This document shows, piece by piece, positions 1 through 14,149 of a stretch of 15,235 nt of DNA. Made by a program: the position numbers and the translations under genes. Origin of the DNA: Thermoanaerobacteraceae bacterium. Its GTDB lineage: Bacteria > Bacillota > Desulfotomaculia > Desulfotomaculales > Ammonificaceae. The notes beneath the pieces are model-generated. The model worked only from the letters and a program-made list of their open reading frames with translations, had not been told where the DNA came from and ran no database searches. Where the stretch lies: positions 1 to 15,235 of the forward strand of contig JASEJH010000012.1 in the NCBI GenBank assembly GCA_030016455.1, read 5' to 3'. Numbering within the stretch: position 1 is the stretch's first letter; the number at the start of each line of letters is the position of its first letter.

Positions 1-46
1 GGCTGCCCGTCAACCCGCCGGAAAATAATAGACGGGAGTGAGGGGC

Positions 47-1240
47 GTGGAGCGAACGATCCTTTTTGTGGACGACGATCCGAATGTGATCCAAGGGCTC
101 CGGCGCATGCTCCGGGAGATGCGGGCGCAGTGGGAGATGCTCTTTGCTACCAGCGGCGAAGAGGCGCTGGCGGTGATGAAGGCGCAGCCCGTTGACGTAA
201 TCGTGGCCGATATGCGGATGCCCGGGATGGACGGCGCTACGCTGCTAACAAAGGTAAGGGAGCTTTACCCCCAGGTGGTCCGGATAATGCTGTCGGGTCA
301 CTCGGACCAGGAGTTGGTGTTGCGGGCTGCCAAAAGCGCCCATCAGTTCTTGGCGAAGCCGTGTGATGCCGAGACGCTGCGGTACACGATTGAGCGTGCC
401 TGCCGGCTGCGGAAGCTGTTCCAGAACGAGGACCTGCTGCAGGCGGCCGCCGGCATCACGACCCTGCCCAGCCTGCCGGCGCTCTATAGCAGGCTGATCG
501 CGGAGTTAGAGTCGCCCGCGGTTTCGCTTGACCGGGTGGGGAAGATCGTCTCCCAGGATATGGCGATGACCGCCAAGGTTTTGCAACTGGTTAACTCTGC
601 CTTCTTCGGGTTGCGCCAGCAGGTTACCGATCCCCGCTGGGCGGTTGCTTTGCTCGGCATAAACAACCTGCGACCGCTGGTGTTCTACCTGCAGTTATTC
701 GAGGCTTTTAAACCCGATGCCGGGACGAGTTTTTCGCTGGAGGCTTTGTGGCGGCACAGCCTGATGGTGGGAAGCCTTGCCAGGGAGATCGCCCGTACCG
801 AGCTGCGGTCCCGCGAGGCGACCGATGAGGCCTTAACGGCGGGGCTCCTCCACGATATCGGGAAACTCCTGTTGTTGCGGGTGCCGGCGTACCGGGAGCA
901 GTTGGCCGCACTCTTTAAGCCAGAGGGCGGCACCACTGCGGCGGCCGAATACCGGCTGTGGGGAACCTCGCACGCCGAGGTCGGGGCCTATCTGCTCGGG
1001 CTGTGGGGCCTCGCCGACTCGATCGTGGAAGCGGTGGCCTTTCACCACCGGCCGGCGGCAGGGGCGGGGAACCGGTTTACCCTGCTGACGGCCATCTACG
1101 TGGCGGATGGTCTGGCCCACGGGGAGGAGGCGGTGCTTGACCACGAATACCTGGAGTTACTCGGGGTGAGCAACAGGGTGGCCCGGTGGGTGGAAATCGG
1201 TCGGGAGGTTAGGGAAAGGGGTTTCCGCGATGAAGGATAA
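47..1240 (+). CDS. Response regulator with C-terminal HDOD domain
   Basis: A 397-residue two-domain signalling protein, probably cytoplasmic. Residues 1-120 are a CheY-like receiver with acidic pocket D9-D11, phosphoacceptor D55 (in ADMRMPG) and lysine K104 (in AKPC). Residues about 140-340 form an HDOD domain (LPSLPALYSRL, the VNSAFFG segment, GLLHDIGK at 266-273). HDOD is a relative of HD hydrolases usually treated as a non-catalytic signalling module. Here H269-D270, an upstream histidine (WRHS) and a downstream HH pair (FHHRP) survive. The GTG at 47 is chosen because GGGAG lies 8 nt upstream and the protein then begins MERTILFVDDD; a GTG at 38 would add three residues but sits on that ribosome site. 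The gene overlaps the next regulator by 11 nt, so the two are probably translationally coupled. The family is clear; the output is unknown. Confidence 0.9.
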   Translation: MERTILFVDDDPNVIQGLRRMLREMRAQWEMLFATSGEEALAVMKAQPVDVIVADMRMPGMDGATLLTKVRELYPQVVRIMLSGHSDQELVLRAAKSAHQFLAKPCDAETLRYTIERACRLRKLFQNEDLLQAAAGITTLPSLPALYSRLIAELESPAVSLDRVGKIVSQDMAMTAKVLQLVNSAFFGLRQQVTDPRWAVALLGINNLRPLVFYLQLFEAFKPDAGTSFSLEALWRHSLMVGSLAREIARTELRSREATDEALTAGLLHDIGKLLLLRVPAYREQLAALFKPEGGTTAAAEYRLWGTSHAEVGAYLLGLWGLADSIVEAVAFHHRPAAGAGNRFTLLTAIYVADGLAHGEEAVLDHEYLELLGVSNRVARWVEIGREVRERGFRDEG

Positions 1241-2390
1241 GGTGCTCCTTGTGGACGACGACCCCCATATCCTTGCCGCCTTCAGGCGAAACCTGCGGCC
1301 GTACTTCGAGATCATGACGGCCGAAAACGGCGCTGCGGGGGTGGCCGCCCTTAAGGACCAGGGACCGTTTGCGGTTGTGGTTTCGGACCTCAAGATGCCG
1401 CAGATGGACGGGATCCAGTTTCTCTCCATCGCCCGCCAGCTCGCTCCGGATACGGTCCGGGTGATGCTCACCGGATACGCGGAGCTCCAGACGGCGATCG
1501 ACGCGATCAACGAAGGGAGCATCTTCCGCTTTCTCACCAAGCCCTGCTCACCCGAGGATTTCTACCGGGTGCTCGAGGCGGCGGTGGAACAGTACCGGCT
1601 CGTGATCGCGGAACGGGAGCTTCTGGAAAAGACGCTCCAGGGCAGCATCAAGGTCCTTATGGATATCCTCTCCGTGGTTAGTCCGTTTGCGTTTAACCAG
1701 GCCTCCCGCCTCCGCTATCTGGCCAGGCGACTGGGGGTTCGCCTGAAGGTGGAACGGCTGTGGGAAGTGGAATTGGCGGCCATGCTATCCCAGATCGGTC
1801 ACGTAACCGTTCCCCAGACGATCCTGGAGAAAAGGTATAAAGGGGAACAGCTTTCCGACGAAGAAGCAAAGGTTTTTTACAGCCACCCGCAGGCGGCGCG
1901 GGATTTACTGAAGAATATTCCGCGCCTCGAGGGGATTGCGGAGGCGATTGCCTACCAGTGCAAACTCTTTAACGGCGAGGGCTTTCCGCTTGACGGTCGC
2001 AGGGGAAAGGCGATTCCTTTAATCGCGCGGATTCTGAAGGTGGTTCTCGATTGCGACGCGCTGGTTCAGGCGGGGAAGACGATTGCCGGGGCCGTGGCGG
2101 TAATGCGCAGCCACGAAGACTGGTACGACCCGGCGGTCCTGGGGGCGCTCGAAGCCGAGGGCTTAGAGGCGGAGGAGGGCTTCATTGTCCGCACCGTCAG
2201 TCTCGGCGAGTTGCTGCCGGGGATGGTGCTGGCCGAAGAGATAACGGACGGCCGGGGCGTTATCCTGGTGCCCAAACGGTACGAGATAAGCGAGGTTTTA
2301 AAGACAAGGCTGCTGAACTTTGCCCGGTTCGGCACGGTATCGCAGCCGATCAAGGTTCTGGAACCGGTCAAGGGTAGAACTGAGGCGTAA
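1230..2390 (+). CDS. Response regulator with degenerate HD-GYP-like domain
   Basis: A 386-residue protein. The N-terminal receiver has D10-D11, phosphoacceptor D53 (SDLKMP) and K104. Residues about 140-285 align by eye with HD-GYP c-di-GMP phosphodiesterases: a SHP motif with H219, then GEGFPLDGRRGKAIPL at about 249-264, then an LDCDAL segment. The catalytic HD pair reads SQ (187-188), the HHE triad reads YQC (242-244), and GYP reads GFP. Several metal ligands are therefore missing and phosphodiesterase activity is unlikely. The last 80 residues (LGELLPGMVLAEEI and onward) are a C-terminal extension seen in other receiver/HD-GYP proteins. The ATG at 1230 has AAAGGGG 8 nt upstream and overlaps the preceding stop. 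It could act as a phosphorylation-gated binding protein, or as a c-di-GMP sensor without catalysis; both are inference. Confidence 0.88.
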   Translation: MKDKVLLVDDDPHILAAFRRNLRPYFEIMTAENGAAGVAALKDQGPFAVVVSDLKMPQMDGIQFLSIARQLAPDTVRVMLTGYAELQTAIDAINEGSIFRFLTKPCSPEDFYRVLEAAVEQYRLVIAERELLEKTLQGSIKVLMDILSVVSPFAFNQASRLRYLARRLGVRLKVERLWEVELAAMLSQIGHVTVPQTILEKRYKGEQLSDEEAKVFYSHPQAARDLLKNIPRLEGIAEAIAYQCKLFNGEGFPLDGRRGKAIPLIARILKVVLDCDALVQAGKTIAGAVAVMRSHEDWYDPAVLGALEAEGLEAEEGFIVRTVSLGELLPGMVLAEEITDGRGVILVPKRYEISEVLKTRLLNFARFGTVSQPIKVLEPVKGRTEA

Positions 2391-2399
2391 AGAGGTTTT

Positions 2400-3149
2400 T
2401 CAGGTGACCGGCAACGCTGCCGGGACGAGCTTGACTTTCCCCCAGGCGCCCAGGTTTTCGCCGGTGACGACTATGGCGCCGGTGACGCCGGGGATGCTCC
2501 GGGCGAAGGCGAGCGCCTTTTCGATGTCGGCGGCCGTTTGCACTAAGTTGCCGGTGGCGGTGGCCACCGCGTCGGCCAGCGTGGCAGAGGCGGCGAGGAT
2601 TACGGCGGCGTCGGCCCGGCCGAGGCTTAAAGAGTGGCCGACCGTTCCCGAAGAGGTGCAGACGCCGAGCGGCGTCATCTCCGGCGGGATCTCTATCGCC
2701 ACCCGGTTGGAGAGAGGCGATTCGCCGGCGAAGATGCCCACCCGGCGCTTGCGGGTGGATTTAAGGTAGATGTCACCGCCGTTTTCGACGATCACATCCC
2801 GGGAGTAGCGGGCAAGGATCCGCCCCACCAGGTCCGCAAACGCACCGGCGACCGCGGCCATCGGGCCGACGCCCGCCGCGGCGGCGGCATCGGCCATCGC
2901 TGCGGCGAGCGCCGGGGCGTTCGGTAGAAGACAGTGCGGCACGAGGGTTTTCAGGAATACCGGGTCTTTTTCAATATAAGCCTCGAGCCGCTTCCGTTCT
3001 TCTTTCACTGTTTTTTCCACTAGCCAGACCAGGTCCGGGTCAAACCGGTCCGCACGCACGCCTATGTGGAGGTCGGTTTCTTTAACTTTTACCTCGAAAT
3101 GGGCGAGGTCGTCTTCCTGGAAGAGCGCCCGGTAGGTGCGCCGCGCCAA
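2400..3149 (-). CDS. UPF0280/COG2122 protein, ApbE-related, sulfide assimilation
   Basis: A 249-residue protein of the UPF0280 (COG2122) family, whose fold belongs to the ApbE/FMN-transferase superfamily. Visible family marks are FEVKVKETDLHI near the N terminus (18-29), the small-residue stretch GPMAAVAGAFA (95-105) and VENGGDIYL (121-129). In Methanosarcina acetivorans a COG2122 protein (MA1715) aids efficient sulfide assimilation, which fits the two genes upstream here; the biochemistry is not settled. The TTG at 3149 is chosen because it starts 1 nt beyond the ferredoxin stop, has GGAGG 12 nt upstream and gives the family's usual length. The open frame extends upstream to 3317, but that part only mirrors the ferredoxin gene in another frame. 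It is the last gene of the operon and converges on the HD-GYP-like gene with 9 nt between and no clear terminator. Confidence 0.85.
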   Translation of the reverse strand: MARRTYRALFQEDDLAHFEVKVKETDLHIGVRADRFDPDLVWLVEKTVKEERKRLEAYIEKDPVFLKTLVPHCLLPNAPALAAAMADAAAAAGVGPMAAVAGAFADLVGRILARYSRDVIVENGGDIYLKSTRKRRVGIFAGESPLSNRVAIEIPPEMTPLGVCTSSGTVGHSLSLGRADAAVILAASATLADAVATATGNLVQTAADIEKALAFARSIPGVTGAIVVTGENLGAWGKVKLVPAALPVT

Positions 3150-3150
3150 C

Positions 3151-3552
3151 TTAAAAACGGACCTCCATCGCGTGCATCGGACAGGCCCGCACGCAGAGCT
3201 GGCAGACGACGCAGGCCTCACTGTCGAAGCGGACAAACATCGCCGGCCGCTCCAAGTAGAGTGCTCCGGTGGGGCAGATCGCGGTACAGGCCCCGCAATG
3301 GGTGCAGCGCTCCTCATTGCGCACGATATCTTCCGTTAAGGGTTGCACGCCCACGCCCTGCCGGCGCAGGAAATCAAGGCCCGCTTCGGTTTTCTCGCCA
3401 ACCACGTCAAGGACCATCGTTCCCTCTTTGTGCGGGTTGATGTTCGCTTTGAGGATGTTGATCATCAGGTCGTAATCCTTGACCAGGTGAAAGATGATCG
3501 GTTTATCGGCGATGGCTGCTGGGAAGCGCAAAACCACCTTGCTCGGCGCCAT
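3151..3552 (-). CDS. NIL domain protein with 2[4Fe-4S] ferredoxin domain
   Basis: A 133-residue protein. Residues 1-75 are a NIL domain, a small ligand-binding fold also found at the C terminus of methionine ABC importer ATPases. Residues 80-127 hold two CxxCxxCxxxCP clusters: C83, C86, C89, C93 and C114, C117, C120, C124. It can therefore carry two [4Fe-4S] clusters and pass electrons. Its homologue in Methanosarcina (MA1822) works with the DUF39 protein to make homocysteine from aspartate semialdehyde and sulfide. The ATG at 3552 directly abuts the upstream TAG stop, and the ribosome site AAGGAGG lies inside the end of the DUF39 gene, so translation is probably coupled. The stop is followed after 1 nt by the UPF0280 start. 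The family call is firm; the exact electron donor is unknown. Confidence 0.92.
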   Translation of the reverse strand: MAPSKVVLRFPAAIADKPIIFHLVKDYDLMINILKANINPHKEGTMVLDVVGEKTEAGLDFLRRQGVGVQPLTEDIVRNEERCTHCGACTAICPTGALYLERPAMFVRFDSEACVVCQLCVRACPMHAMEVRF

Positions 3553-4770
3553 CTATCTGTTCCTCCTTCCAGAATCCCGGATTTCGAGGGTTTTGGGGGT
3601 GATGCCGGCGTCCGGGCCGGGCAGAAGCTGGACCGGCTCGCCGAGCAGGAATTTTCCCTCTAAAATCCACTGTTTGAGTATGTTACTGATTTCACGCGCC
3701 TTAACATAGCTCGACAGCGGCGCGGTCGGCACTTCTTTTCCTTCGATGATTATTCGGCCCGACTTGAGTTCGGCGTAGCTGACGAAGCCTAAGTTGCCGG
3801 GCCGGCGGTTCGGGTAGGCTTCGGCATAATCCACCACCGGCGCGTAAAGCTCGCTGTCCGGCCGGGAGGCCCAGTAGCAAACCTCCTCGTTTAAGACAGG
3901 GATGGGGATGCCGATGCCCACGCTGAGGGTGGCGCCGTAGCCCAGCATGCTCGTTCCCCGCAGCCATTGCGGACTCATCTGCTTCAGGTCGCCCAGTACG
4001 GCAAGGGTACCCCCTGCCGGGACGGGCGGCGCCCCTTCCGGCAGTGCCAGAAGGCCCGGGAAGTGCTGCGTCCCGTTCCAGACCACGTAACCGGTGCCGC
4101 CGCCGAGGAAGATGCGGGTACCCACGCCGATGGTGCGGAAGTACGGATCCTTCAAGAGCGGGCTCAACTGTCCCGAAGTGGAATAGTGGGCGTTGCCCAG
4201 GCGGGGTTTGAGCACCCCCATATAGGTATAAAGCGTCTTCGGCCCGAGGTTCACCGCGCAGTTATAGTTCTGGTAAGCGTTGCGGGGGTTGAAGAGCACC
4301 GCCTCGTTTAGGTCGTTAAGGGTGACTACGGTTTCAATTTCGCGGCGCGGGTAGCAGTCGGTGCCGTAGCCGAGCGCCTTGAGCCGGACTGGTCGCCCGG
4401 CTACTAAGTCCTCGATGACATGTCCGCCGCCGTAACGGAACTCGCCGGGGTGGTTCTTGTTTAAGGGATCCTCTTCCGGCAGGGCTGTAGCGCCAAGGAA
4501 AGCGTCAACGGCAGCCAGGCCGGCGTAGGCCGGCACGTTGTTCAGCCAGACCCGGTGAAACTTTATCCGCGGCGCACTGTGTCCAAAGTTGAAGAAGGCT
4601 CCCGAGGAGCACATCGGGGCGAAGGTTCCGGTGGTGACGACATCAACCTCTTTCGCTGCCCGGCCCACGCCCTTTTCGGCGACGAACTGGACCAGTTCCT
4701 CTGCGGTTACCACCACCGCCTTGCCGGCCCTGATTTTGGCGTTGATTTCGGCGAAAGTTTTCTCCGCCAA
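3553..4770 (-). CDS. DUF39 homocysteine biosynthesis protein
   Basis: A 405-residue protein of the DUF39 (COG1900) family, which with the NIL-ferredoxin builds homocysteine from aspartate 4-semialdehyde and sulfide, bypassing O-acyl-homoserine. Visible features are the N-terminal TFAEINAKIRAGKAVVVTAEE, the segment FAPMCSSGAFFNFGH (50-64) with C54, and GYGTDCYPRRE (134-144) with C139. From memory, two conserved cysteines, one also near residue 54, are functionally important in the methanogen protein. The length matches the form without C-terminal CBS domains. The TTG at 4770 is chosen because GGGAGGGAG lies about 7 nt upstream and the product then starts (M)AEKTFAEIN. A longer frame to 4863 would run back across the riboswitch terminator. 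First gene of the operon, under the SAM-I riboswitch. Confidence 0.92.
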   Translation of the reverse strand: MAEKTFAEINAKIRAGKAVVVTAEELVQFVAEKGVGRAAKEVDVVTTGTFAPMCSSGAFFNFGHSAPRIKFHRVWLNNVPAYAGLAAVDAFLGATALPEEDPLNKNHPGEFRYGGGHVIEDLVAGRPVRLKALGYGTDCYPRREIETVVTLNDLNEAVLFNPRNAYQNYNCAVNLGPKTLYTYMGVLKPRLGNAHYSTSGQLSPLLKDPYFRTIGVGTRIFLGGGTGYVVWNGTQHFPGLLALPEGAPPVPAGGTLAVLGDLKQMSPQWLRGTSMLGYGATLSVGIGIPIPVLNEEVCYWASRPDSELYAPVVDYAEAYPNRRPGNLGFVSYAELKSGRIIIEGKEVPTAPLSSYVKAREISNILKQWILEGKFLLGEPVQLLPGPDAGITPKTLEIRDSGRRNR

Positions 4771-4810
4771 TTTGCTTCTCCCTCCCCTTTCCCTGGCGCT
4801 CCGCTCGCAG

Positions 4811-4845
4811 AGAAAATTACAGCCCCTTCCAACAAGAAGAGGCTG
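4811..4845 (-). terminator. Intrinsic terminator of the SAM riboswitch
   Basis: On the minus strand a 10-bp stem (CAGCCTCTTC pairing with GGAGGGGCTG-like bases through one G-T wobble, loop about 6 nt, positions 4820-4845) is followed by TAATTTTCT. It lies between the aptamer and the DUF39 ribosome site. The 3' strand of aptamer helix P1 ends in AAGAG, which can pair with CTCTT in the terminator's 5' arm. This gives the usual S-box choice: SAM bound, terminator forms; SAM low, antiterminator forms and the operon is read. Confidence 0.85.
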
Positions 4846-4862
4846 CGATTTGGTTCGTAGCA

Positions 4863-4995
4863 CTCTTATCTGTCAGAAGAGAACGTTGGATAGCTCTCCC
4901 TGCAGGAATTAGCACCTGGCCGGCTGAGCCTCGTTAGGCCACCGGCTGGTTGCCGGGCTTCATAGGGCCAGTCCCTCCGCCGCTCTGGATAAGAG
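4863..4995 (-). promoter_or_regulatory. SAM-I (S-box) riboswitch aptamer
   Basis: The minus strand carries the S-box core in order: CTCTTATC (P1 5' strand), CAGAGCGGCGGAGGGACTGG, CCCTATGAAGCCCGGCAACC, a P3 hairpin with GCCGGTGGCC and GGCTCAGCCGGC arms, CCAGGTGCTAATTCCTGCAG, and GATAAGAG (P1 3' strand). The two P1 strands are perfectly complementary over 8 bp. These blocks match the known SAM-I consensus closely, including the G-rich GGAGGGACTGGCCC and GGTGCTAATTCC segments. It binds S-adenosylmethionine and should turn off the homocysteine operon when methionine and SAM are plentiful. This gives independent support for a sulfur/methionine role for all three downstream genes. Confidence 0.97.
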
Positions 4996-5022
4996 CCCAG
5001 GTCGTATTTGGTTTGTTCTAAA

Positions 5023-5049
5023 ATTATCAGTTTTCGCGCGGGGTGTCAA
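5023..5049 (-). promoter_or_regulatory. Promoter of the riboswitch-controlled operon
   Basis: On the minus strand a perfect TTGACA -35 box (5044-5049) and a GATAAT -10 box (5023-5028) are separated by 15 nt; reading TAATTT as the -10 would make the gap 17 nt. Transcription would start about 20 nt before the riboswitch P1 helix. The -35 box contains the TGA stop codon of the upstream DUF2889-like gene. Confidence 0.65.
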
Positions 5050-5888
5050 GAGGCGGATTCATTTTTCTTCCGTCGCTCCCGCGCAGCCTGCAGGAGGGTC
5101 ACGGCTTCCGCGGCCAGGTCGATCAGGTGGACGCAGCCTTGCTCCTCCCCCAAAAGGGACGCGGTCTCCGCCCGCGTCAGGCCGGGGAGGCGAACCCCTT
5201 CGAGACGCTCGATGAAGGTTGCGGCGCCAAAGCAGAGCCGGTCCGGGGCCCGGATGATTGCTCCGGCCGCTTCGCGCACGGTTTCGCCGGCCGGGTCGAG
5301 GTGGAGGCTGAACGCCATCTCGTGAAACGAATCGTTGATGGCAGCGCGCAACAGCATGCCGCCCTGGTCCCGGTCGAGCGACAGGGTCTTGAACCGGTTG
5401 AACAGGTGGGTGCCGGGCCGGCGGCCCGCTACGTAGGCGGCCCAGGTTTGTTCGATCGCGTCCAGGTTGCTGTAATAGCGGCAGGTACCGGTGTAAAATT
5501 TCTCCCAGTAGGCGGCATACTCGTCGAGGGAGGAAAAACCACGCTCCTCCAGCAGGAAGGTCTCGGCCTGGATGACGGCGCCGACGGTCTCGCGGAAGAG
5601 GGTGAGGGCCACGGGCGGGTAGGCGGCCAGCGCCTCCTGCAGCGATTTGCCGCACCCGAAATAGGCCACGACGCCCTGCAAGGCCGGGATTTCGACGGCG
5701 GGGGGCAGGTCCTCGCCTTCGAAGCGGTGCACCTCCCAGGTTGCCCCGAGGATTTTGAGGGTTTTCGGTTCGATCCAGAGCTGCGCTGCCGTCTCCCTGC
5801 CGGTGCCGCACTGGGTCGTCCGGGCGAGGAGCCGGTCACCCAGGTGGTGGACGCTGGCGAGACGCATTTCGTGCATGAAAGGTCGCAT
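5046..5888 (-). CDS. DUF2889-like protein of unknown function
   Basis: A 280-residue soluble protein with no signal peptide or membrane segment. The C-terminal half (about 175-270) resembles DUF2889: DSFHEMAFSLHLDP, then IIRAPDRLCFGA, then ERLEGVRL, then GCVHLIDL. The N-terminal half (about 17-75) has a similar pattern, with QLWIEPKTLKILGA, then VEIPALQGVVAYFG, so the protein may hold two diverged copies of one fold. The ATG at 5888 follows GGAGGT after 4 nt, a short but workable gap. A promoter is likely at 5926-5955. The stop overlaps the next operon's -35 box and no terminator lies between, so transcripts may run into the SAM riboswitch. No function is assigned; a sulfur or methionine role is suggested only by position. 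The opposite-strand frame over the same stretch lacks these signs. Confidence 0.7.
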   Translation of the reverse strand: MRPFMHEMRLASVHHLGDRLLARTTQCGTGRETAAQLWIEPKTLKILGATWEVHRFEGEDLPPAVEIPALQGVVAYFGCGKSLQEALAAYPPVALTLFRETVGAVIQAETFLLEERGFSSLDEYAAYWEKFYTGTCRYYSNLDAIEQTWAAYVAGRRPGTHLFNRFKTLSLDRDQGGMLLRAAINDSFHEMAFSLHLDPAGETVREAAGAIIRAPDRLCFGAATFIERLEGVRLPGLTRAETASLLGEEQGCVHLIDLAAEAVTLLQAARERRKKNESAS

Positions 5889-5925
5889 GGTTACCTCCGG
5901 TGCCGGGTTTTGGTGTACAAACCAT

Positions 5926-5955
5926 ATTGTATCAGGGGTCCGGGCGGCGCTACAA
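5926..5955 (-). promoter_or_regulatory. Probable promoter of the DUF2889-like gene
   Basis: On the minus strand TACAAT (5926-5931, five of six matches to the -10 consensus) lies 18 nt downstream of TTGTAG (5950-5955, a weak -35). The boxes sit about 40-65 nt before the ATG. The match is moderate and was found by eye only. Confidence 0.45.
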
Positions 5956-6020
5956 GGGGTTGGAACGGAGTGCTGCGGAATTTTGGGTAGAAGGTAGTAG
6001 CCGCGCCGGGTTTTTTTCGT

Positions 6021-6026
6021 TATAAT
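6021..6026 (+). promoter_or_regulatory. -10 box of the CGGC-domain gene
   Basis: A perfect TATAAT lies 36 nt before the GTG start at 6062. No good -35 box is visible at 16-18 nt spacing, so an activator may be needed or the promoter may rely on the -10 box. It lies in the divergent gap shared with the DUF2889-like gene. Confidence 0.55.
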
Positions 6027-6061
6027 ACATATGTTAAAAATTTTTGCCGGGGGGAGATAGC

Positions 6062-6421
6062 GTGGCGCGCGTGGTGATCCTGAACTGCAAAAAGATCAGG
6101 GATATCCTTTGTGTCTCGTGCATGAAGTGCTACAAGGCGATGCAGGAACGGGTGGGTGAGTTTGAGCGCTACAAGGACGAGCCGATTGACATCGTGGCGA
6201 TGGGCGACTGCGGCGATTGTCCCGGGCTGGTGATGCCGAAGTTAGTGCTGATCAGCGATATCGGCAAGGCGATCGGACGCGACTTCGACGTGGTTCACCT
6301 AGGAACCTGTATCGTCAAGGCCGGTATGACGGCGAAGTGCCCGATCAATCCGGAGGAACTGGCCAAGAAGATCAAGGACAAAATGGGGAAAGAGGTAATC
6401 ATCGGGACGCATCCGTGGTAA
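6062..6421 (+). CDS. CGGC-domain cysteine-rich protein, putative metal binding
   Basis: A 119-residue protein of the CGGC-domain family (PF08821), a small cytosolic family thought to bind metal and common in anaerobes. Family landmarks are the VVILNC start, FERYKDE (35-41), the central GDCGDCPG (49-55, where the usual CGGC reads CGDC), DVVHLGTCI (76-84), KCPI (92-95) and the terminal VIIGTHPW. It has eight cysteines: C9, C17, C20, C23, C50, C53, C83, C93. The GTG at 6062 is chosen because GGGGGGAG lies about 6 nt upstream and the product starts MARVVILNC; the frame can extend to a TTG at 6044, but that lies before the ribosome site. It is a single-gene unit with its own -10 box and terminator. 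The metal and the reaction are unknown. Confidence 0.85.
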   Translation: MARVVILNCKKIRDILCVSCMKCYKAMQERVGEFERYKDEPIDIVAMGDCGDCPGLVMPKLVLISDIGKAIGRDFDVVHLGTCIVKAGMTAKCPINPEELAKKIKDKMGKEVIIGTHPW

Positions 6422-6437
6422 TGCCGGTGGGGCTCTT

Positions 6438-6471
6438 CCGGGGGGCAAAAACGCTCCCCGGTTTATTTTTT
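6438..6471 (+). terminator. Strong intrinsic terminator after the CGGC gene
   Basis: CCGGGGGGC and GCTCCCCGG form a 9-bp stem (6438-6461) with one G-T wobble and a 6-nt loop AAAAAC, followed at once by TTTATTTTTT. It lies 17 nt after the stop and isolates the CGGC gene from the glycosyltransferase operon. Confidence 0.92.
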
Positions 6472-6596
6472 GGGGAATAAAGAGGGGATATGGAGGAATA
6501 AGACGAATACGAGGTTGACGGCGAAAGCGGTAAAAAGTGGTTGTCTCAAAGGTAGTTCAAAACAGACGATTTTATAAGTAGGAGGTTGCAGGTTTC

Positions 6597-7763
6597 TTGC
6601 GGGTGGGAGTTTTCCTGGACAGTTACCGGCCGTACGTGAGCGGCGTCGTCCGTTCGGTGGAAACCTTCCGGGCGGAACTGGCGAAAAGAGGGGTTTCCTT
6701 CTTCATTTTTGCGCCGTGGTATCCGCGCTGCGAACCGGAGGAGCAGGTTTACCGGTTTTTTGCGGTGCCGGCGCCGACGAACCGCGACTTTATGCTGGCC
6801 GTTCCGGTTTCCCCCCGGCTGGGGCGGGAGTTAAAGCGGCTTGAACTTGATCTGATCCACGTGCACTCGCCGTTTCTCTTAGGAAGTCTCGGGGCGCGCT
6901 GGGCCCGGCGCTTGGGCCTGCCGCTCGTTTTCACCTACCATACCCTTTACGAGGAATACGTGCACTACTTCCCGCTCCTGCAGAAACAGGCGCGTGCGGT
7001 GACCCGGCGGTACACCGTTGGCTTTTGCAACCGATGCGACCTGGTACTTGCACCGACGGGGATAATCCGGGAGTACCTGGTGCGGGCCGGCGTCCGTGTT
7101 CCGGTGGCGACTTTGCCCACCGGCATCAACCTGGCGGTTTTCCGGGGGGGTGACCGGGAGGGTTTCCGGCGGCGGTACGGGATCGCCCCGGACGCACCGG
7201 TCCTGGTTTACGTCGGGCGCTTAGGCAAGGAGAAAAACATCGCGTTCTTGCTCCGGGCGCTGCGGCGGATCGGGGAGCGGATGCACGACGTGCGGCTGGT
7301 GCTGGTTGGCGGGGGACCCGCGCGCAGGGAACTGGCTGCTTTAGCGGGGGAACTGGGGGTGGGGGAGCGGGTAATTTTTACCGGCCCCGTACCGCCGGAC
7401 CGGGTGAAGGATTGCTACGCCGCTGGCGATCTTTTTGTAAGCGCTTCACTCACCGAAACCCAGGGGCTGGTAATCGGGGAGGCCAAGGCGGCGGGCCTGC
7501 CCGCGGTTGCGGTGGGGGCGCAGGGTGTAAGCGAAATGGTGGCGGAGGGGGTGGACGGATTTTTAACCCCTCTGGACGAAGAAATTTTTGCCGACCGGGT
7601 CTGCAGATTGCTGGAGGACGCGGAGTTGTACCGCCGGCTGAAGGTGAACGCCCTGATGAAAGCCGAGGAGCTGTCCGCGTCCCGGACGTCGGACATACTT
7701 TTGGGCCATTACCGGGTGCTGGCCGGTCGTGTGAGGGAGAAGGGGATTCAGGCAGGGGAATAG
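6597..7763 (+). CDS. GT4 family glycosyltransferase
   Basis: A 388-residue GT-B fold retaining glycosyltransferase. The N-terminal domain starts MRVGVFLDSYRPYVSGVVRS and includes DLIHVHSPFLLG (85-96) and FTYHTLYEEYVHYFP (112-126). This most resembles the 1,2-diacylglycerol 3-alpha-glucosyltransferase/alpha-mannosyltransferase-like branch. The C-terminal domain has VYVGRLGKEKN (204-214), LVLVGGGP (234-241) and the EX7E catalytic motif E287-E295 in ETQGLVIGE. A membrane glycolipid or surface polysaccharide is the likely product, but the acceptor cannot be read from sequence. The TTG at 6597 gives the expected N terminus; GGAGG lies 11 nt upstream, rather far, and a GTG at 6603 is possible. The gene is 12 nt from degS, so the three genes probably form one operon. 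No confident promoter was found in 6472-6596. Confidence 0.88.
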   Translation: MRVGVFLDSYRPYVSGVVRSVETFRAELAKRGVSFFIFAPWYPRCEPEEQVYRFFAVPAPTNRDFMLAVPVSPRLGRELKRLELDLIHVHSPFLLGSLGARWARRLGLPLVFTYHTLYEEYVHYFPLLQKQARAVTRRYTVGFCNRCDLVLAPTGIIREYLVRAGVRVPVATLPTGINLAVFRGGDREGFRRRYGIAPDAPVLVYVGRLGKEKNIAFLLRALRRIGERMHDVRLVLVGGGPARRELAALAGELGVGERVIFTGPVPPDRVKDCYAAGDLFVSASLTETQGLVIGEAKAAGLPAVAVGAQGVSEMVAEGVDGFLTPLDEEIFADRVCRLLEDAELYRRLKVNALMKAEELSASRTSDILLGHYRVLAGRVREKGIQAGE

Positions 7764-7775
7764 GAGGTGACGCTC

Positions 7776-8915
7776 GTGACCGACATGAAAAGTCTTGACG
7801 ACATCATTAAAGAAACGGTGGATTTGATCGAAAAGAATAAAGAAGAGATTTTTGCCATCGCTGAAGCGACGGAAGCGGAAGTGGTGCGCATGCGCAGGGA
7901 GGTCGAGCAGGTCCGGCAGGAAACCCAGGAGCTAATCGCCCGGGTCGACGCGCTGGAAAAAGAGGAAAAAAAGGCTCGCGTCCGCTTGATGGAGGTAAGT
8001 GCAGATTTTTCAAAATATTCGGAGGCGGACATCAAGGAGGCTTACGAGAACGCCCAGCGGCTTCAAGTCGAACTCGTCACCCTGCGGGCCCAGGAAAGCA
8101 TGCTGCGCTTCCGCCGGGACGAGCTGGAGCGGGGGCTGAAACGTCTCCTCGATACCAGGCAGCGGGCGGATCGGTTGGCTTCCAGAGTAGGAGTGGTGCT
8201 CCAGTACCTGAAGGAGGATCTTCAGGAAGCGGCGGGGCGCTTGGGGGAGATGCACCAGTGGCAGCAGATGGCGCTCCGGATTCTCGAAGCGCAGGAAGAA
8301 GAACGGCAGCGGGTAGCCCGTGAAATCCACGACGGCCCGGCACAGTCAATGGCAAACGTGGTGATGCGGGCGGAGTACTGTTTGAAGTTGTTAGAGAAAA
8401 ACCCGGGAAAGCTCCGGGAAGAGTTGGTGGCGCTCCAGACCATAGCTCGCGACAGCCTGCAGGACACGCGGAAGATCATCTTTGACCTGCGGCCCATGGC
8501 GCTCGACGACCTGGGCTTGGCGGCGGCGTTGAAGAAGTTCGTGGCGAATTACAAGGACCAGTACGGGTTGCCGGTGGAATACCAGTACTTCGGGCCGCGC
8601 AGGCGGCTGCCGGAAGCGGTGGAAGTGGCGCTGTTCCGGATCGTCCAGGAAGGGTTAAACAACATCTACAAGCACGCCCACGCTTCGAGTGCGTCCGTAA
8701 AGCTGGAGGTTTTGCCGGACAAGGTGAATCTGGTAATCAGGGATAACGGCAGGGGCTTCAACGTGCAAAAGGTCTTGAAGGACCGGAACCGCAAGGGTTA
8801 TGGGTTGTTGGGAATTAAGGAACGGGTACAGTTGCTGAAGGGTGAAATGGAAATCGTTTCTGCGCCCGGCAAGGGGACAACCCTGATGGTGAATATTAGC
8901 CTGCCGGAGGAATAA
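7776..8915 (+). CDS. degS: Sensor histidine kinase DegS
   Basis: A 379-residue cytoplasmic histidine kinase with no membrane segment, as in Bacillus DegS (about 385 aa). Residues 5-165 form the long coiled-coil DegS sensor domain ([20 protein letters not shown], then [21 protein letters not shown]). The HisKA_3 region holds the phosphoacceptor H185 in REIHDGPAQ and the family block [14 protein letters not shown] (235-248). The ATPase domain has N295/N296 ([12 protein letters not shown]), DNGRGF (323-328) and [10 protein letters not shown] (341-350). It should phosphorylate the DegU-type regulator encoded next. The GTG at 7776 is chosen because AGGAGGTGA ends 5 nt before it; upstream GTG 7767 lies inside the ribosome site and ATG 7785 is far. 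Its input signal is unknown. Confidence 0.95.
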
Positions 8916-8961
8916 GAAATTGAGGTGTTTTGCGGAACCTTGCGCCAATGGAGGAGTGGCC

Positions 8962-9597
8962 GTGGTAAGGGTTTTGATCGCTGACGACCACGCCCTGATC
9001 CGGGAAGGGCTGCGGAAGATCCTTACGATGGAACCGGGGATCAGGGTGGTCGGTGAGGTCGACAACGGGCAAGCGGCCGTGGATTTTGTCCGGCGCGAGC
9101 CGGTGGACGTGGTGCTCCTTGACGTCAGCATGCCGGTGATGAACGGGGTCGAGGCGTGCCGGCAGATCAAGCAGGCCAAGCCCGGCGTGGCGGTAGTCGC
9201 ACTCACCATTCATGATCAAGACGAGTATCTTTTCGAAATGATCCGCGCGGGGGTTTCCGGATACATCCTAAAGGACGTTTCGCCGGACAAGCTGGTGGAA
9301 ACGATCCGGGGCGTGGCGCGCGGGGAGTCTTTCATTCCGCCGCAACTGGCAACAAAGATCTTTCAGGAGTTCAGCCGGCTGGCGGAGAGGAACAACCCGG
9401 ACGGGCTCACCGAGCGAGAGCTGGAAGTGTTGCGTCTGGTCGCCGCCGGGGCGAGCAACCGGGAGATCGCCAGCACCCTTTACATCAGCGAGAAGACGGT
9501 GAAGAACCACCTGTCGAACATCTTCCAGAAGATCGGCGTAACCGACCGTACACAGGCTGCGCTTTACGCGCTGAAGCACCGGCTGGTAAGATTGTAG
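8962..9597 (+). CDS. degU: Response regulator DegU, NarL/LuxR family
   Basis: A 211-residue transcription factor. The receiver (1-118) has D8-D9, phosphoacceptor D54 in LLDVSMP and K104. The LuxR-type helix-turn-helix (about 149-207) reads [22 protein letters not shown], then [18 protein letters not shown]. It is the partner of the DegS kinase 46 nt upstream. In Bacillus DegU controls motility, biofilm and exoenzymes; here its place just before the Tad pilus locus suggests that it controls pilus genes, which is inference. The GTG at 8962 has GGAGG 7 nt upstream and the product starts [16 protein letters not shown]. The frame extends to a TTG at 8920, but that tail is not conserved receiver sequence. 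Confidence 0.94.
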
Positions 9598-9606
9598 TTC
9601 CGGGAC

Positions 9607-9634
9607 GGGGATGGCAACAAGCCCCCAATTTTTT
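9607..9634 (+). terminator. Probable intrinsic terminator after degU
   Basis: GGG, a bulged AT, GGC, loop AACAA, then GCCCCC form a short G+C-rich hairpin (9607-9626), followed by AA and six T residues (9629-9634). It begins 10 nt after the degU stop. The stem is short and bulged, so termination may be partial. Confidence 0.6.
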
Positions 9635-9666
9635 AACACTTTCTTTTGTCGAATATTCCAAAATTA

Positions 9667-9702
9667 GGTCGAAAGTCCCATGAAAAATGGGACTATAAGA
9701 CC
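9667..9702 (+). repeat. Inverted repeat in the leader region of flp
   Basis: AGTCCCAT (9674-9681) and ATGGGACT (9687-9694) are perfectly complementary around the loop GAAAA. Outside them GGTC (9667-9670) pairs with GACC (9699-9702) across an internal loop of GAA and ATAA. There is no T-run after it, so it is not a normal terminator. It may be an RNA element in the pilin leader or an operator. Confidence 0.7.
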
Positions 9703-9791
9703 CCCATAAAATAAGGCAAACGTTCGATAGCAAGCCCTTTGCGGTTTGTTACGATAAAACCAAAGACACATGTCAAAGGAGGGAAAAAACG
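9703..9791 (+). promoter_or_regulatory. Possible structured leader upstream of the Flp pilin
   Basis: This stretch between the inverted repeat and the pilin start contains GGCAAAC (9715-9721), GCAAGCC (9730-9736) and the arms GGTTT and AAACC (about 9743-9761), which can form alternative helices. GGCAAAC can pair with GTTTGT, competing with the GGTTT/AAACC hairpin. CGATA occurs twice (9725 and 9752). The strong ribosome site AAGGAGGG (9776-9783) follows. GGCAAAC with GCAAGCC recalls pieces of the c-di-GMP-I aptamer but the layout does not fit that consensus. No promoter with good boxes was located in 9635-9791. Confidence 0.35.
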
Positions 9792-9953
9792 ATGTTGGAG
9801 CTGGTTCGGCGTTTGGTAAGGGAAGAGGAAGGTCAGGGAATGGCGGAGTACGGTTTGATTTTAGCGCTGATTGCGGTGGTGGCAATTGCCGGACTGCTGA
9901 TCCTCGGGCCAAAGATCAGGGATAAGTTTGTTGATGTTTCAAACAACCTGTAA
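9792..9953 (+). CDS. flp: Flp-family type IVb pilin
   Basis: A 53-residue pilin precursor and the structural subunit of the Tad pilus. The leader (residues 1-14, rich in basic and acidic residues) ends in EEEG. The conserved processing motif G/XXXXEY is seen as G14 followed by QGMAEY, so the prepilin peptidase should cut between G14 and Q15 and leave a mature pilin of 39 residues. E19-Y20 and the hydrophobic segment GLILALIAVVAIAGLLIL (21-38) match the Flp/Fap family. The ATG at 9792 has AAGGAGGG 8 nt upstream, the strongest ribosome site near the locus, as expected for an abundant subunit. It stands alone between two non-coding stretches, suggesting that it is expressed separately from or at a higher level than the assembly genes. 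Confidence 0.95.
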   Translation: MLELVRRLVREEEGQGMAEYGLILALIAVVAIAGLLILGPKIRDKFVDVSNNL

Positions 9954-10040
9954 CCCACCGGTCTTTGGAAGCCTAAAGAAGTTTTTACACGGCGGATACC
10001 ATTCAGTTTGGATCGAAGAGGCACCTCCTACCCCTACATA

Positions 10041-10072
10041 GACCCTACCCGGTCGTTTGGCCGGGTAGGGTC
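10041..10072 (+). terminator. Perfect 12-bp hairpin between flp and tadV
   Basis: GACCCTACCCGG (10041-10052) and CCGGGTAGGGTC (10061-10072) are perfectly complementary around the loop TCGTTTGG. A TTTTTT run exists only at 10084-10089, 11 nt past the stem, so this is not a textbook terminator. It could partly stop transcription after flp or protect the pilin mRNA from 3' decay; either would raise pilin output relative to assembly proteins. Confidence 0.55.
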
Positions 10073-10113
10073 ACCTTTAGAACTTTTTTAGGCGTCTGAC
10101 GTGGACTTGAACT

Positions 10114-10136
10114 GGAAATCGCCTCTGGGGATTTCC
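10114..10136 (+). repeat. Short inverted repeat before tadV
   Basis: GGAAATC (10114-10120) and GATTTCC (10130-10136) form a perfect 7-bp stem around a 9-nt loop. No T-run follows. Its role is unknown; it lies between the 12-bp hairpin and the tandem heptamers. Confidence 0.5.
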
Positions 10137-10144
10137 TTCAACAA

Positions 10145-10179
10145 CCGACGTCCGACGACTGACGACCGACGACCGATAA
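10145..10179 (+). repeat. Five tandem heptamers, consensus CCGACGA
   Basis: Five consecutive 7-nt units are CCGACGT, CCGACGA, CTGACGA, CCGACGA and CCGATAA. They end about 30 nt before the prepilin peptidase start, where an activator or operator could act. They may equally be a neutral microsatellite-like array. Confidence 0.7.
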
Positions 10180-10210
10180 GAAGGGCTTGCCAAGGTTTTT
10201 AGGAAATCGG

Positions 10211-10711
10211 GTGGTTGGGGTGACGTTCCTGGACTTTCTGGTAATAACGGTGGCGCTGGTTTCGATCGCGACCGACCTCTGCCAGCGGCGGATTTACAAC
10301 TTAGTTGTTTTCCCGACCGTCGTTTTGGCGCTGCTCTTTCGTGGCGTCACAGGCGGGTGGACGGAAGTCTGGGGAGGGCTGGCGGGTCTCACAGCCGGGA
10401 TTGGGCTCTTGCTCCTTCCGTACGTCGCGGGTGGAGTGGGTGCCGGCGACGTAAAGTTTCTCGGGGCGGTGGGAGCCTGCGGTGGTCCCCTCTTCGCGCT
10501 TTACACCTTCCTGGCGGGGGCGGTCCTGGGCGGTCTGGTATCCTGCTACCTGCTGGCCAGGAACGGCAAGCTCGGACTGGCGTTAAAGGGAGTTTGTTTC
10601 GGCTTCTTACTGCCGGGCGGCGTGCGGCTGTGGCTTGGAGAAAGCGGAGTCCGGTTTCCTTACGGTGTAATGTTTTGTTTGGGCGTCTTTGTCGCCTTAT
10701 TGTTGAGGTGA
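10211..10711 (+). CDS. tadV: Prepilin peptidase, TadV/CpaA type (A24)
   Basis: A 166-residue polytopic membrane aspartyl protease that trims Flp and the TadE-like pseudopilin. The two catalytic aspartates are visible: D22 in ATDLCQRRIYN and D80 in the GxGD motif GAGDVKF. About five or six hydrophobic segments span the protein. It is short, lacking the N-methylation half of classical PilD enzymes, as usual for TadV. The start is uncertain. GTG 10211 has AGGAAA 5-6 nt upstream, and GTG 10220 gives the more typical MTFLDFLVI start. TTG 10187 would add eight residues but has a ribosome-like site too close to it. It stops 5 nt before the TadE-like gene, so the two are co-transcribed. It lies 257 nt after flp. 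Confidence 0.9.
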   Translation: MVGVTFLDFLVITVALVSIATDLCQRRIYNLVVFPTVVLALLFRGVTGGWTEVWGGLAGLTAGIGLLLLPYVAGGVGAGDVKFLGAVGACGGPLFALYTFLAGAVLGGLVSCYLLARNGKLGLALKGVCFGFLLPGGVRLWLGESGVRFPYGVMFCLGVFVALLLR

Positions 10712-10716
10712 GGTTT

Positions 10717-11100
10717 ATGCGCCGTGGAGAACGCGGCCAGGCTACAGTTGAACTCGCGCTTGTGGTTCCGGTCCTGCTCCTCATTCTTTTTGGCATCATG
10801 GAGTTCGGGCGGATTTTTTCGTCCTATTTAATCGTTACCAATGCTGCGCGGGAAGGTGCCCGGCTGGCGGTGGTAGGAGGCGATGACGCGGCTATCGTAG
10901 AGCGGGTGGAAGACGCGGCCGCCGGCCTGGATTTGAGCAGGTTGACGGTGACCATTACTCCTTCGGAGGGCAGCCGGGTAACGGGTGTACAGGCCACGGT
11001 GAGCGTGGGTTACAGCGTTGATCTGGTCACGCCGGTACTCAGCGGGCTTGCACCCAATCCTTTTCCGTTGACGGCTCAGGCTACGATGCGCGTTGAGTGA
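10717..11100 (+). CDS. tadE: TadE-like pseudopilin
   Basis: A 127-residue TadE-like protein (PF07811). The N terminus ERGQATVELALVVPVLLL has the charged leader, a G-Q-A-x-x-E core like a prepilin processing site (G7, E12) and one membrane segment (about 12-34), then MEFGRIFSSY and NAAREGARLAVVGG. The rest is a small extracytoplasmic beta-rich domain. It is processed by the same peptidase and works as a minor pilin in Tad pilus assembly. The ATG at 10717 sits 5 nt after the tadV stop with GAGG 8 nt upstream. An upstream extension of the same frame only overlaps tadV. Confidence 0.92.
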   Translation: MRRGERGQATVELALVVPVLLLILFGIMEFGRIFSSYLIVTNAAREGARLAVVGGDDAAIVERVEDAAAGLDLSRLTVTITPSEGSRVTGVQATVSVGYSVDLVTPVLSGLAPNPFPLTAQATMRVE

Positions 11101-11111
11101 GGTGAGAAAAG

Positions 11112-12020
11112 ATGAGCCTGTTAAGGGATGAACGGGGTACGGTCCTGGTTCTGGTAGCGGCGGCCCTGGTGGTCTTGCTCGGTTTTGGCGCCCTCACCAT
11201 TGACGTCGGCCTTTTGTTTCTTAACCGAGAGCGCCTGGTAAACGCGGCCGACGCGGCTGCGCTTGCCGGGGTGCAGTTTTTGCCGGGCGATCCCGTGAGC
11301 GCTGCTAATACCGCGCTCTATTACGCGCTCCAAAACGGGATCGAACCCGGGGAAGTGACGGTTAATGTCAGCGGTGACGGCAGGACCATTACAGTTAGTA
11401 CCGCGCGGCAGGTCAGTTTCTTTTTAGCTCCTGTGCTTGGTTTCGCCGATACAGGAGTGTCGGCAGAGGCCAAGGCGCGGGTAGGCGGTGTAGAGGCGGT
11501 TTGGGGTGCCGCCCCGCTGGGGATTCTGGAACAAACCCTCGAGTTCGGCGAGCTCTACACGCTCAAGGTTGGCGGCGGGTGCGGGGAGCAGGGGAATTTC
11601 GGTGCGCTGGCCCTGGGCGGCCACGGAGCAGGTAACTTCGAGGACAACCTGCGAGACGGCTACGACGGATGGCTCGAAATCGGCGACGTGATCGAAACCG
11701 AGACGGGCAACATGTCCGGACCGACAAAGCGTGCGATTGAAGACCGGATCAGCGGGCACGAGGGTTGTACCTTCGATAACTACTGCCAGAATTGCCCGCG
11801 CCTCATTTATGTTCCCGTCTACCGGGATCTCGGCGAGAAGGAGCAAGGAAGGCACGAAGTCGAAATTGTCGGCTTTGCCGCCTTTTTCCTGGACGGGGTC
11901 GTTCCGGGGCAGGGCCAGGAAAGCAAGGTAAGGGGTTACTTCGTGGAAAAGCTGAGCAGCGCGGCGCAGGGTCTCAACGGAACTGATTTCGGGCTCCGAA
12001 CGGCAAAGCTAATTGAATAA
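11112..12020 (+). CDS. Tad (TadG-like) pilus assembly protein
   Basis: A 302-residue membrane-anchored protein. Residues 4-55 are the Tad/TadE-G-like N-terminal domain (PF13400): DERGTVLVLVAAALVVLLGF, ending in NAADAAALAG. One membrane segment (10-33) leads to a large outward-facing domain. Beyond residue 130 the sequence has a glycine-rich stretch around C157 and a cysteine cluster C219, C225, C228 (GCTFDNYCQNCPR), unusual for an exported domain and possibly for disulfides or metal. It lacks the long von Willebrand A domain of proteobacterial TadG and is about half that length, so it is better called a Tad-domain protein. The ATG at 11112 is 11 nt after the TadE-like stop. Its exact part in assembly is unknown. 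Confidence 0.85.
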   Translation: MSLLRDERGTVLVLVAAALVVLLGFGALTIDVGLLFLNRERLVNAADAAALAGVQFLPGDPVSAANTALYYALQNGIEPGEVTVNVSGDGRTITVSTARQVSFFLAPVLGFADTGVSAEAKARVGGVEAVWGAAPLGILEQTLEFGELYTLKVGGGCGEQGNFGALALGGHGAGNFEDNLRDGYDGWLEIGDVIETETGNMSGPTKRAIEDRISGHEGCTFDNYCQNCPRLIYVPVYRDLGEKEQGRHEVEIVGFAAFFLDGVVPGQGQESKVRGYFVEKLSSAAQGLNGTDFGLRTAKLIE

Positions 12021-12034
12021 GGGGAGAGTCACGG

Positions 12035-12805
12035 GTGCGGAACAAGCTCTTTTTATTCTTCGCGGTGATTTTTGCTGCCGGTGCCGCCTTAAGCGTCTAC
12101 TTCTACTTAGAATCGGTTGAGAAGGCTTACCGGGAAGCCGGAAAGTACGTGACCGTGGTGGTTGCCGGGAGCGACATCCCGGCCCGGAGTACCGTGACGG
12201 CGGGGGTGATCAGGTACGCGGACATGCCGGAGCAGTACGTACATCCGGCTGCGGCGCGGTCCGCCCAGGAAGTCCTCGGGAAAATTGCTCTGGCGGACAT
12301 TGCCGCCGGGGAACCGATCCTCAAAAGCAAACTCGTGGCGGAGAAGGACGCCCGCCACGGCCTGGCTTTCGGTCTGGCTGCCGGTGAGCGTGCCGTGACG
12401 GTAGCGGTGACCGAGGTTTCCGGGCTGGCGGGAATGGTGCAGCCGAACGACCGGGTGGACGTGATTGCAACGTTTGACGTAGTACCGCCCAACCCCCAGG
12501 AACCCAAAACCAGTTACAGCTCAACCATCATCCATAACGTTCGGGTACTGGCGACCGGGCAGACGCTTGTTTCGGTTAAGGATAGCAAAGGCAAAAAGGG
12601 TTCCGGGTTCGAAACCGTAACCCTGGCGGTGACCCCGGCCCAGGCGCAGTTGCTGGTTTTGGCTTCCGAGCGGGGGACCATCCGCCTGGTGCTGCGTTCG
12701 CCGGCAGACGAAAGCGTGATCAGGGTGCCGCCGGCTAAGCTGCTCGACCTGCTCAATGTTGCACATAGCGCACCGGTACCGGTACCGGCGCCTTTGAAGA
12801 AGTAG
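12035..12805 (+). CDS. cpaB: Flp pilus assembly protein RcpC/CpaB
   Basis: A 256-residue protein anchored by one N-terminal membrane segment (about 4-24). Residues 38-102 form a SAF domain (VVVAGSDIPARSTVTAGVIR, then ADIAAGEPILKSKL). Residues 115 onward are the RcpC/CpaB core (GERAVTVAVTEVSGLAGMV, then NDRVDVIATFD, then TVTLAVTPAQAQLLVLA). In diderm Tad systems RcpC acts with the secretin RcpA. No secretin gene is seen in this window, and if the host is a monoderm, CpaB would have a wall-related or periplasm-like role. The C terminus is a short PVPVPAP linker. The GTG at 12035 follows GGGGAGAG at normal spacing and 14 nt after the previous stop. Confidence 0.92.
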   Translation: MRNKLFLFFAVIFAAGAALSVYFYLESVEKAYREAGKYVTVVVAGSDIPARSTVTAGVIRYADMPEQYVHPAAARSAQEVLGKIALADIAAGEPILKSKLVAEKDARHGLAFGLAAGERAVTVAVTEVSGLAGMVQPNDRVDVIATFDVVPPNPQEPKTSYSSTIIHNVRVLATGQTLVSVKDSKGKKGSGFETVTLAVTPAQAQLLVLASERGTIRLVLRSPADESVIRVPPAKLLDLLNVAHSAPVPVPAPLKK

Positions 12806-12923
12806 CCCAGCACTCGACTGACTGAGAATTGAAGAACTTTCACGCGGGCGAACAGGTCTCAGGTGTATAAAACTTCTGCCACTTCAAAGATTAGGTTGAG
12901 TGCCGGGCGGGGAGGCATAGGTC

Positions 12924-14120: not shown

Positions 14121-14149
14121 ACCAGCGAGGTTAGCCGGGAGATGGTAGG

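Follow-up and report, generated by a model that had tools for sequence, protein, structure and literature searches.

A SAM-I leader over a probable sulfide-to-homocysteine operon in Desulfotomaculales and related Bacillota

We have found that an aptamer of the SAM-I (S-box) class, a sensor of S-adenosylmethionine (SAM), precedes a tight run of three genes, encoding a DUF39 protein, a ferredoxin with a NIL domain and a UPF0280 protein, on the minus strand of a stretch of DNA from Thermoanaerobacteraceae bacterium, an anaerobe (order Desulfotomaculales, family Ammonificaceae). The stretch, which we refer to as the window, is 15,235 nucleotides (nt) long and corresponds to positions 1-15,235 of the forward strand of contig JASEJH010000012.1 in assembly GCA_030016455.1. 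Judging from the sequence and its conservation, we consider it very probable that the three genes form a SAM-repressed operon for making homocysteine out of aspartate semialdehyde and sulfide. That the synthesis of homocysteine is under SAM feedback, as an initial annotation of this DNA had proposed, is well supported because the linkage of aptamer and operon extends across the order and the phylum, because genes of the MetH, MTHFR and MetX types lie in the same stretch in some relatives, and because the assembly itself gives no full-length MetY-type or MetX match; the idea is not new, as such control has been attributed to a CBS domain in Methanosarcina (PMC12068725; papers given here by PMC number are cited from excerpts).

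The leader and the three genes

The aptamer occupies positions 4863..4995 (-), just where the initial annotation had placed it. A scan with Rfam gave RF00162 there at 78.7 bits (E 1.9e-17, gathering cut-off 44.4 bits), with the match spanning positions 1-108 of the 108 in the model; it is the sole Rfam match at gathering score on either strand of the window and the only RF00162 match in its own assembly (G000, completeness 80.6%). The SAM contacts of SAM-I are located in J1/2 and in the internal loop of P3 (PMC10853860), and at both places the window matches the upper-case letters of the Rfam consensus (AGAG..., GGUGC.AAUUCC in the Rfam alignment). Variants of SAM-I in which these two elements are changed do exist (PMC10853860), and were the aptamer one of them, with a ligand other than SAM like the spermidine riboswitches, the operon would answer to a different signal. 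We regard this as highly improbable, because the strongly conserved letters of J1/2 and the P3 loop are kept, 64 aptamer columns are invariant between the window and 17 relatives, and the content of the operon is that of methionine synthesis.

Downstream of the aptamer, as the initial annotation had also noted, lies a predicted intrinsic terminator at 4820..4845 (-), with a stem of 11 bp and, after it, a U-rich tail, AAUUUUCU. The hairpin at 4845-4820(-) has a folding energy of -17.9 kcal/mol, against -7.0 (sd 1.9) in 200 shuffled sequences, none of which was as good (z -5.9). A consensus terminator scan also lists this hairpin, with the tail AATTTTCTCT; over positions 2200-6100 that scan found 5 terminator-like sites where shuffled sequences gave 5.1, and so on its own it is no evidence. 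A putative antiterminator spans 4834..4867 (-), in which AAGAG of the 3' strand of P1, a bulged U and GCU...CGA would pair with the terminator 5' arm (UCG...AGC CUCUU); with the 3' arm of the terminator omitted, this fold is predicted at -11.0 kcal/mol. Terminator and antiterminator, an expression platform that would be exclusive of P1, are both predicted folds, and in the model the sharing of the P1 3' strand by the antiterminator is the classic exclusive pair of S-box leaders. Just 5' of the aptamer a weak candidate promoter can be picked out by eye at 5023..5049 (-), with TTGACA, a 15-nt spacer and GATAAT. If the leader acts as these folds suggest, then at high SAM the nascent aptamer would be bound and P1 held, the terminator would form and RNA polymerase would halt before the DUF39 gene; at low SAM the P1 3' strand would instead pair with the terminator 5' arm, and DUF39, the NIL-ferredoxin and UPF0280 would be made together.

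The three genes under the leader are assigned by profile matches. The first (3553..4770 (-), 405 aa, TTG start) encodes a DUF39/COG1900/HcyBio protein of the L-aspartate-semialdehyde sulfurtransferase (L-ASST) type (PF01837, 511.7 bits, cut-off 26.2); the second (3151..3552 (-), 133 aa) encodes a NIL domain with two [4Fe-4S] motifs (PF09383 54.4 bits, Fer4 54.2 bits); and the third (2400..3149 (-), 249 aa, TTG start) encodes the UPF0280/COG2122 protein (NF003323, 310.6 bits, cut-off 271). The DUF39 gene ends at 3553 and the ferredoxin gene starts at 3552, a gap of 0 nt, and the latter ends at 3151, 1 nt from the UPF0280 start at 3149. The gene families and the tight spacing are therefore as first described; the interval originally given for the system, 3147..4995, reaches only as far as the start of UPF0280, the body of which runs on to 2400.

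The roles of the three proteins come from the work of others. In Desulfovibrio vulgaris, transposon fitness data have shown that DUF39, the NIL/ferredoxin protein and COG2122 are all needed for methionine synthesis, and methionine rescues the mutants (Price 2018, PMC5764234), so the presence in a bacterium of families familiar from Methanosarcina, which the initial annotation had pointed out, was already known in 2018. Cys54 is essential in the Methanosarcina L-ASST (Chadwick 2025, PMC12068725); in our alignment Cys54 is found in 131 of 131 homologues and Cys139 at a frequency of 0.99, and the window residues C54 and C139 correspond to Cys54 and Cys131 of Methanosarcina by motif and number, MA1821 itself being absent from the alignment. 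By analogy, the window DUF39 would move sulfur onto aspartate semialdehyde via Cys54, the two [4Fe-4S] clusters of its partner would supply electrons, UPF0280 would aid sulfide assimilation, and the homocysteine produced would feed methionine and SAM. The profile TIGR03287 (methanogenesis marker 16, MMP16) likewise finds the window DUF39, at 118.6 bits, and on that account the protein might make some other thiol, as MMP16/ComF does for coenzyme M. There is little to recommend this: the score is far under the cut-off of 363.95, the ferredoxin is a separate gene and not inserted as described for MMP16 (PMC12068725), and both the Cys54 and Cys139 pattern and the methionine genes that share the stretch in relatives speak against it.

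Each half of the arrangement has precedents. In aptamer score, in the P1-sharing terminator and antiterminator and in having methionine synthesis as its target, the leader resembles the transcriptional type of SAM-I (RF00162), but the usual targets of that type are metX, metY and metK, whereas here it is the direct sulfide pathway. Methanosarcina (MA1821, MA1822 and MA1715) has all three families, Cys54 and a ferredoxin partner; the window differs from the methanogen system in that its genes form one tight operon, its DUF39 is without a C-terminal CBS pair and, as we infer, control is by RNA. Desulfovibrio has the same three families; their locus tags in Desulfovibrio vulgaris Miyazaki, 1464, 0262 and 0044, lie well away from one another, unlike the tight operon of the window. 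Dehalococcoides has a three-gene run, DET0921:DET0919, named as the DUF39 pathway (Price 2018, PMC5764234). The pathway, including COG2122, is thus already known from genetics, and the switch type and the genes are known. S-boxes have been reported before metX and metIC in Geobacter, at a time when Desulfovibrio had no known way to homocysteine (Rodionov 2004, PMC545781); a single SAM-I has been reported in O. alaskensis G20 (PMC11124144); and novel genes under SAM riboswitches have been considered probable methionine genes (Sun 2013, PMC3766115). Our literature search, which several key older papers lay beyond, found no earlier statement of a link between SAM-I and DUF39/COG1900.

Linkage of aptamer and operon in relatives

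SAM-I over DUF39/UPF0280 is a lineage-wide arrangement and the usual one in the related bacteria that we examined. We compared the window with 130 further DUF39 loci, 40 from the order (a sample of 41 genomes in 32 genera) and 90 from a sample of 299 genomes of the phylum, in 99 of which PF01837 is found; this makes 131 loci in 129 genomes, since G180 and G184 have two each, and leaves out G318, whose DUF39 is broken over two contigs. (L171, with a partial DUF39, was left out of set A2; set A4 excludes L128 and a number of open frames that were long or partial.) A covariance model, R1, was built from 18 aptamers of the order and searched over all 131 loci; although it derives from relatives, RF00162 itself marks the same places within the order. 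By R1, a same-strand SAM-I aptamer lies upstream at 110 of the 131 loci, that is 39 of 41 in the order, all 39 within 400 nt, and 71 of 90 among the further phylum loci. Over the whole set the distance to DUF39 is within 400 nt at 95 loci and greater at 15. PF01837 is present in all 41 genomes of the order and RF00162 in 40, and 27 of the 41 have exactly one RF00162 match, which by its coordinates is in every case the aptamer over DUF39. The expression platform recurs as well: a terminator-like hairpin follows the aptamer in 91 of the 110 leaders, compared with 3.1% of shuffled leaders (five shuffles each), and in 63 of these 91 the region of the P1 3' strand contains 5 nt complementary to the 5' arm of the terminator. 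We note that one genome has, in addition to its intact copy, a second SAM-I aptamer about 4 kb upstream (L021:881-993(+)), followed by a 61-codon frame (L021:1083-1268(+)) that covers the DUF39 model over its first 37 positions only and with the aptamer looks like a decayed tandem duplicate.

We also looked for other routes to homocysteine in the order. Full-length PF01053 (the MetY/MetB type) is found in 10 of the 41 genomes and MetX over its cut-off in three; by coordinates, metX or metY is likewise preceded by SAM-I in seven genomes, and G021, the sole genome lacking RF00162, gives a strong match to PF01053. In the assembly that contains the window, at 80.6% completeness, there is no full-length PF01053 match and no MetX match over its cut-off, only a partial PF01053 match of 29 bits.

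Makers and users of homocysteine share the SAM-I stretch in several lineages, as judged from the genes found there. Between aptamer and DUF39 we find a MetH-type gene at four loci by Pfam or NCBIfam (L044, L060, L064 and L084), S-methyl_trans with MTHFR at L063, S-methyl_trans at L092, MetX at L119, and at five more loci (L071, L081, L083, L086 and L088) an open frame known to be MetH-sized from its size alone. Downstream of UPF0280 there are MetH-type genes at L073 and L102, S-methyl_trans at L117, MTHFR at L095 and a gene for a pyridoxal phosphate-dependent enzyme at L064, along with genes that have no evident link to the pathway (NAD synthase, YebC-like, MFS and serine dehydratase). At L119, which is the second DUF39 copy of G184, SAM-I, MetX, DUF39 and a NIL-type gene stand in a row with no UPF0280, which puts both homocysteine routes under one leader. 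At L128 the DUF39 protein is fused to a two-cluster ferredoxin (3159-4589(-)) under SAM-I and is followed by UPF0280 and then by an amino-acid kinase with a hint of an ACT domain, aspartokinase-like by reading (1217-2416(-)).

Three genomes of family f49 have a gene of about 290 aa between SAM-I and DUF39 (L072:4623-5537(-), L074:4053-4922(+) and L124:3462-4319(-)). It has no Pfam match, and it matches, with E values between 1e-29 and 9e-36, the PADLOC model for Cmr3, an effector protein of type III CRISPR systems; when a low-confidence structure model (pLDDT 56.5) is searched, all 50 of the matches listed are Cas RAMP chains. The protein has nine close homologues in the protein database and remoter matches in 19 other genomes, and the six remoter homologues that were scanned are all strong Cmr3 matches. 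No other cas genes were seen at the three loci, which were partly scanned. Possibly, then, a CRISPR protein has been taken into a methionine operon.

Several observations weigh against the operon being SAM-controlled homocysteine genes as we propose. First, 21 of the 131 loci have no aptamer by R1 or at the Rfam gathering score; one of these (L010) is cut by a contig end and one (L053) is a second copy, and at the remaining 19 DUF39 is kept although SAM-I is missing. The only RNAs found before these 21 loci at the Rfam gathering score were tRNAs. Second, in the window itself a promoter scan requiring spacers of 16-18 nt listed nothing at the leader, where the candidate is weak by consensus, and the minimum free energy fold of the whole 240-nt leader has no clean four-way junction, with a z of only -2.1; such a result is, we believe, usual for long ligand-free leaders, yet it provides no support. 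Third, the assembly, at 80.6% completeness, has no match to PF02574 (the MetH/BHMT type) or PF01717 (the MetE type), and for lack of such a methionine synthase the step from homocysteine to methionine is unaccounted for there. Finally, the role of COG2122 varies by organism, being conditional on low sulfide in Methanosarcina (cited in PMC5764234).

Elsewhere in the window, the neighbours are a DUF2889 protein upstream of the operon and a CGGC-domain protein (neighbour coordinates 5046-5888(-), 6044-6421(+), 38-2390(+) and 10187-15235(+)), together with response-regulator genes and a run resembling Tad/Flp-pilus genes, which were recognised by reading only.

The place of UPF0280

UPF0280 lies at most 800 nt downstream of DUF39 at 128 of the 131 loci, and two of the three exceptions, L053 and L119, are second copies with a sister locus that has UPF0280, the third being L079. 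The initial annotation had argued from the riboswitch that UPF0280 belongs to methionine synthesis; the linkage does provide independent regulatory support for this, but direct genetics had come earlier, in the form of a fitness correlation of 0.98 between COG2122 and DUF39 in D. vulgaris (PMC5764234). UPF0280 could alternatively be an ApbE-like enzyme with a separate function, such as nucleotide or flavin transfer, in which case it would be a mere passenger in the operon or a general helper outside sulfur transfer. Its kinship with ApbE is distant and faint, with 5 of the 31 members of set A5 matching Pfam ApbE (best E 5.5e-7) and ApbE structures aligning to UPF0280 below significance (E 0.17) with the ADAxAT motif in register. 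The nearest solved chain is 2o34_A (E 1.4e-37), which we take to be a Desulfovibrio-type chain. Members from Bacillota, archaea and proteobacteria have in common P96, M97, G102, G124, G125, S175, G177, D193, A196 and N201, a set that presumably resembles the metal-site motif of ApbE. Homologues in 14 proteobacterial loci without DUF39 in the fetched stretch also favour this alternative, and indicate that the UPF0280 fold has other uses. Both the retention of UPF0280 beside DUF39 and the fitness correlation tell against it, and we therefore think it unlikely that UPF0280 stands outside the pathway.

The proteobacterial homologues came from one scan of named genomes outside the phylum, with UPF0280 as query, which gave 20 loci and did not cover Desulfobacterota or Chloroflexota. 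In all 14 (L138-L151) NNGGD replaces ENGGD and the position of Cys164 holds Ala; at L138 the UPF0280-like gene is followed by two AA_synth (PF06684) genes.

We also considered a persulfide relay at Cys164 of UPF0280 as a general mechanism. This residue is present in 126 of 128 Bacillota proteins, and all 19 archaeal-side sequences (L137 and L154 being one record counted twice) have A, G or S in its place, which rules out such a relay as a general mechanism and is in keeping with UPF0280 acting outside sulfur transfer. Among the sequences compared, Cys164 is confined to the Bacillota side and to 2o34. Because the ApbE-like residues are common to all groups and Cys164 is restricted to the Bacillota side, we infer that UPF0280 is a helper in sulfide assimilation or in enzyme maturation, in preference to a Cys164 relay.

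RNA and protein sensors of SAM

The archaeal members of the DUF39 family offer a contrast. In Methanosarcina the CBS domain of L-ASST is taken as allowing SAM control (Chadwick 2025, PMC12068725), and the CBS pair of MJ0100 binds SAM and methylthioadenosine according to the title of Lucas 2010 (a reference in PMC12068725). In 81 genomes of one archaeal phylum, reached from record L137 through G330, PF01837 is found in 24; a CBS domain is present in 17 of the 23 complete DUF39 proteins, and three others are MMP16-like with Fer4. The C-terminal CBS pair of one such protein matches MJ0100 (3kpc, E 1e-31). This pair, of which 3kpb, 3kpc and 3kpd are the structures, is missing from the window protein and from all 39 of the Bacillota-side DUF39 proteins scanned, where C-terminal extensions, apart from the ferredoxin fusion at L128, are no longer than 28 aa; the CBS pair is thus not a defining feature of bacterial members. 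Conversely, no SAM-I was found by R1 at any of the 24 archaeal loci, nor by Rfam at the 20 that were included (all but L174-L177). UPF0280 lies within short flanks at 18 of the 24. From these sequences, SAM feedback may act at the level of protein in the archaeal group and of RNA in Bacillota.

The NIL domain may be a further variable part. A two-cluster ferredoxin partner is found at 129 of the 131 loci (L079 and L102 being without one), and at nine of these (L063, L073, L076, L092, L093, L095, L097, L112 and L115) the partner is 65-80 aa long, which leaves no room for a NIL domain; all nine have SAM-I. From the sequences, the NIL domain seems dispensable and the two clusters look as though they are not. 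In Methanosarcina the NIL domain is taken to bind methionine (PMC12068725), and since the partner is reduced to its ferredoxin half at nine Bacillota loci, all of them under SAM-I, NIL could be an optional sensor. It is conceivable, if somewhat doubtful, that the family carries exchangeable SAM devices on a common core, in archaea a CBS pair fused to the DUF39 protein, in Bacillota a leader of the SAM-I class, with NIL as a third, optional sensor, of methionine. The idea of a common core with exchangeable sensors comes from finding CBS with no SAM-I in archaea and SAM-I with no CBS in Bacillota. That contrast is one deep split and is confounded by phylogeny, which weighs against its proving exchange of sensors; moreover, none of the 21 SAM-I-free loci on the Bacillota side has a C-terminal extension long enough for CBS, so that within the phylum the one sensor is not replaced by the other where it is lost.

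If such exchange does occur, then the system would consist of a fixed core (DUF39 with Cys54, the two-cluster ferredoxin and UPF0280) with interchangeable sensor parts. The linkage described here ties a little-studied route from sulfide to homocysteine, present in 99 of 299 sampled genomes of the phylum, to a sensor with a known ligand. It also allows UPF0280 to be tested readily for membership of the pathway, through its co-repression with DUF39, lets feedback through RNA be compared with feedback through protein on the same enzyme in nature, and makes it cheap to find the operon, and the odd extra genes that accompany it, in unannotated genomes.

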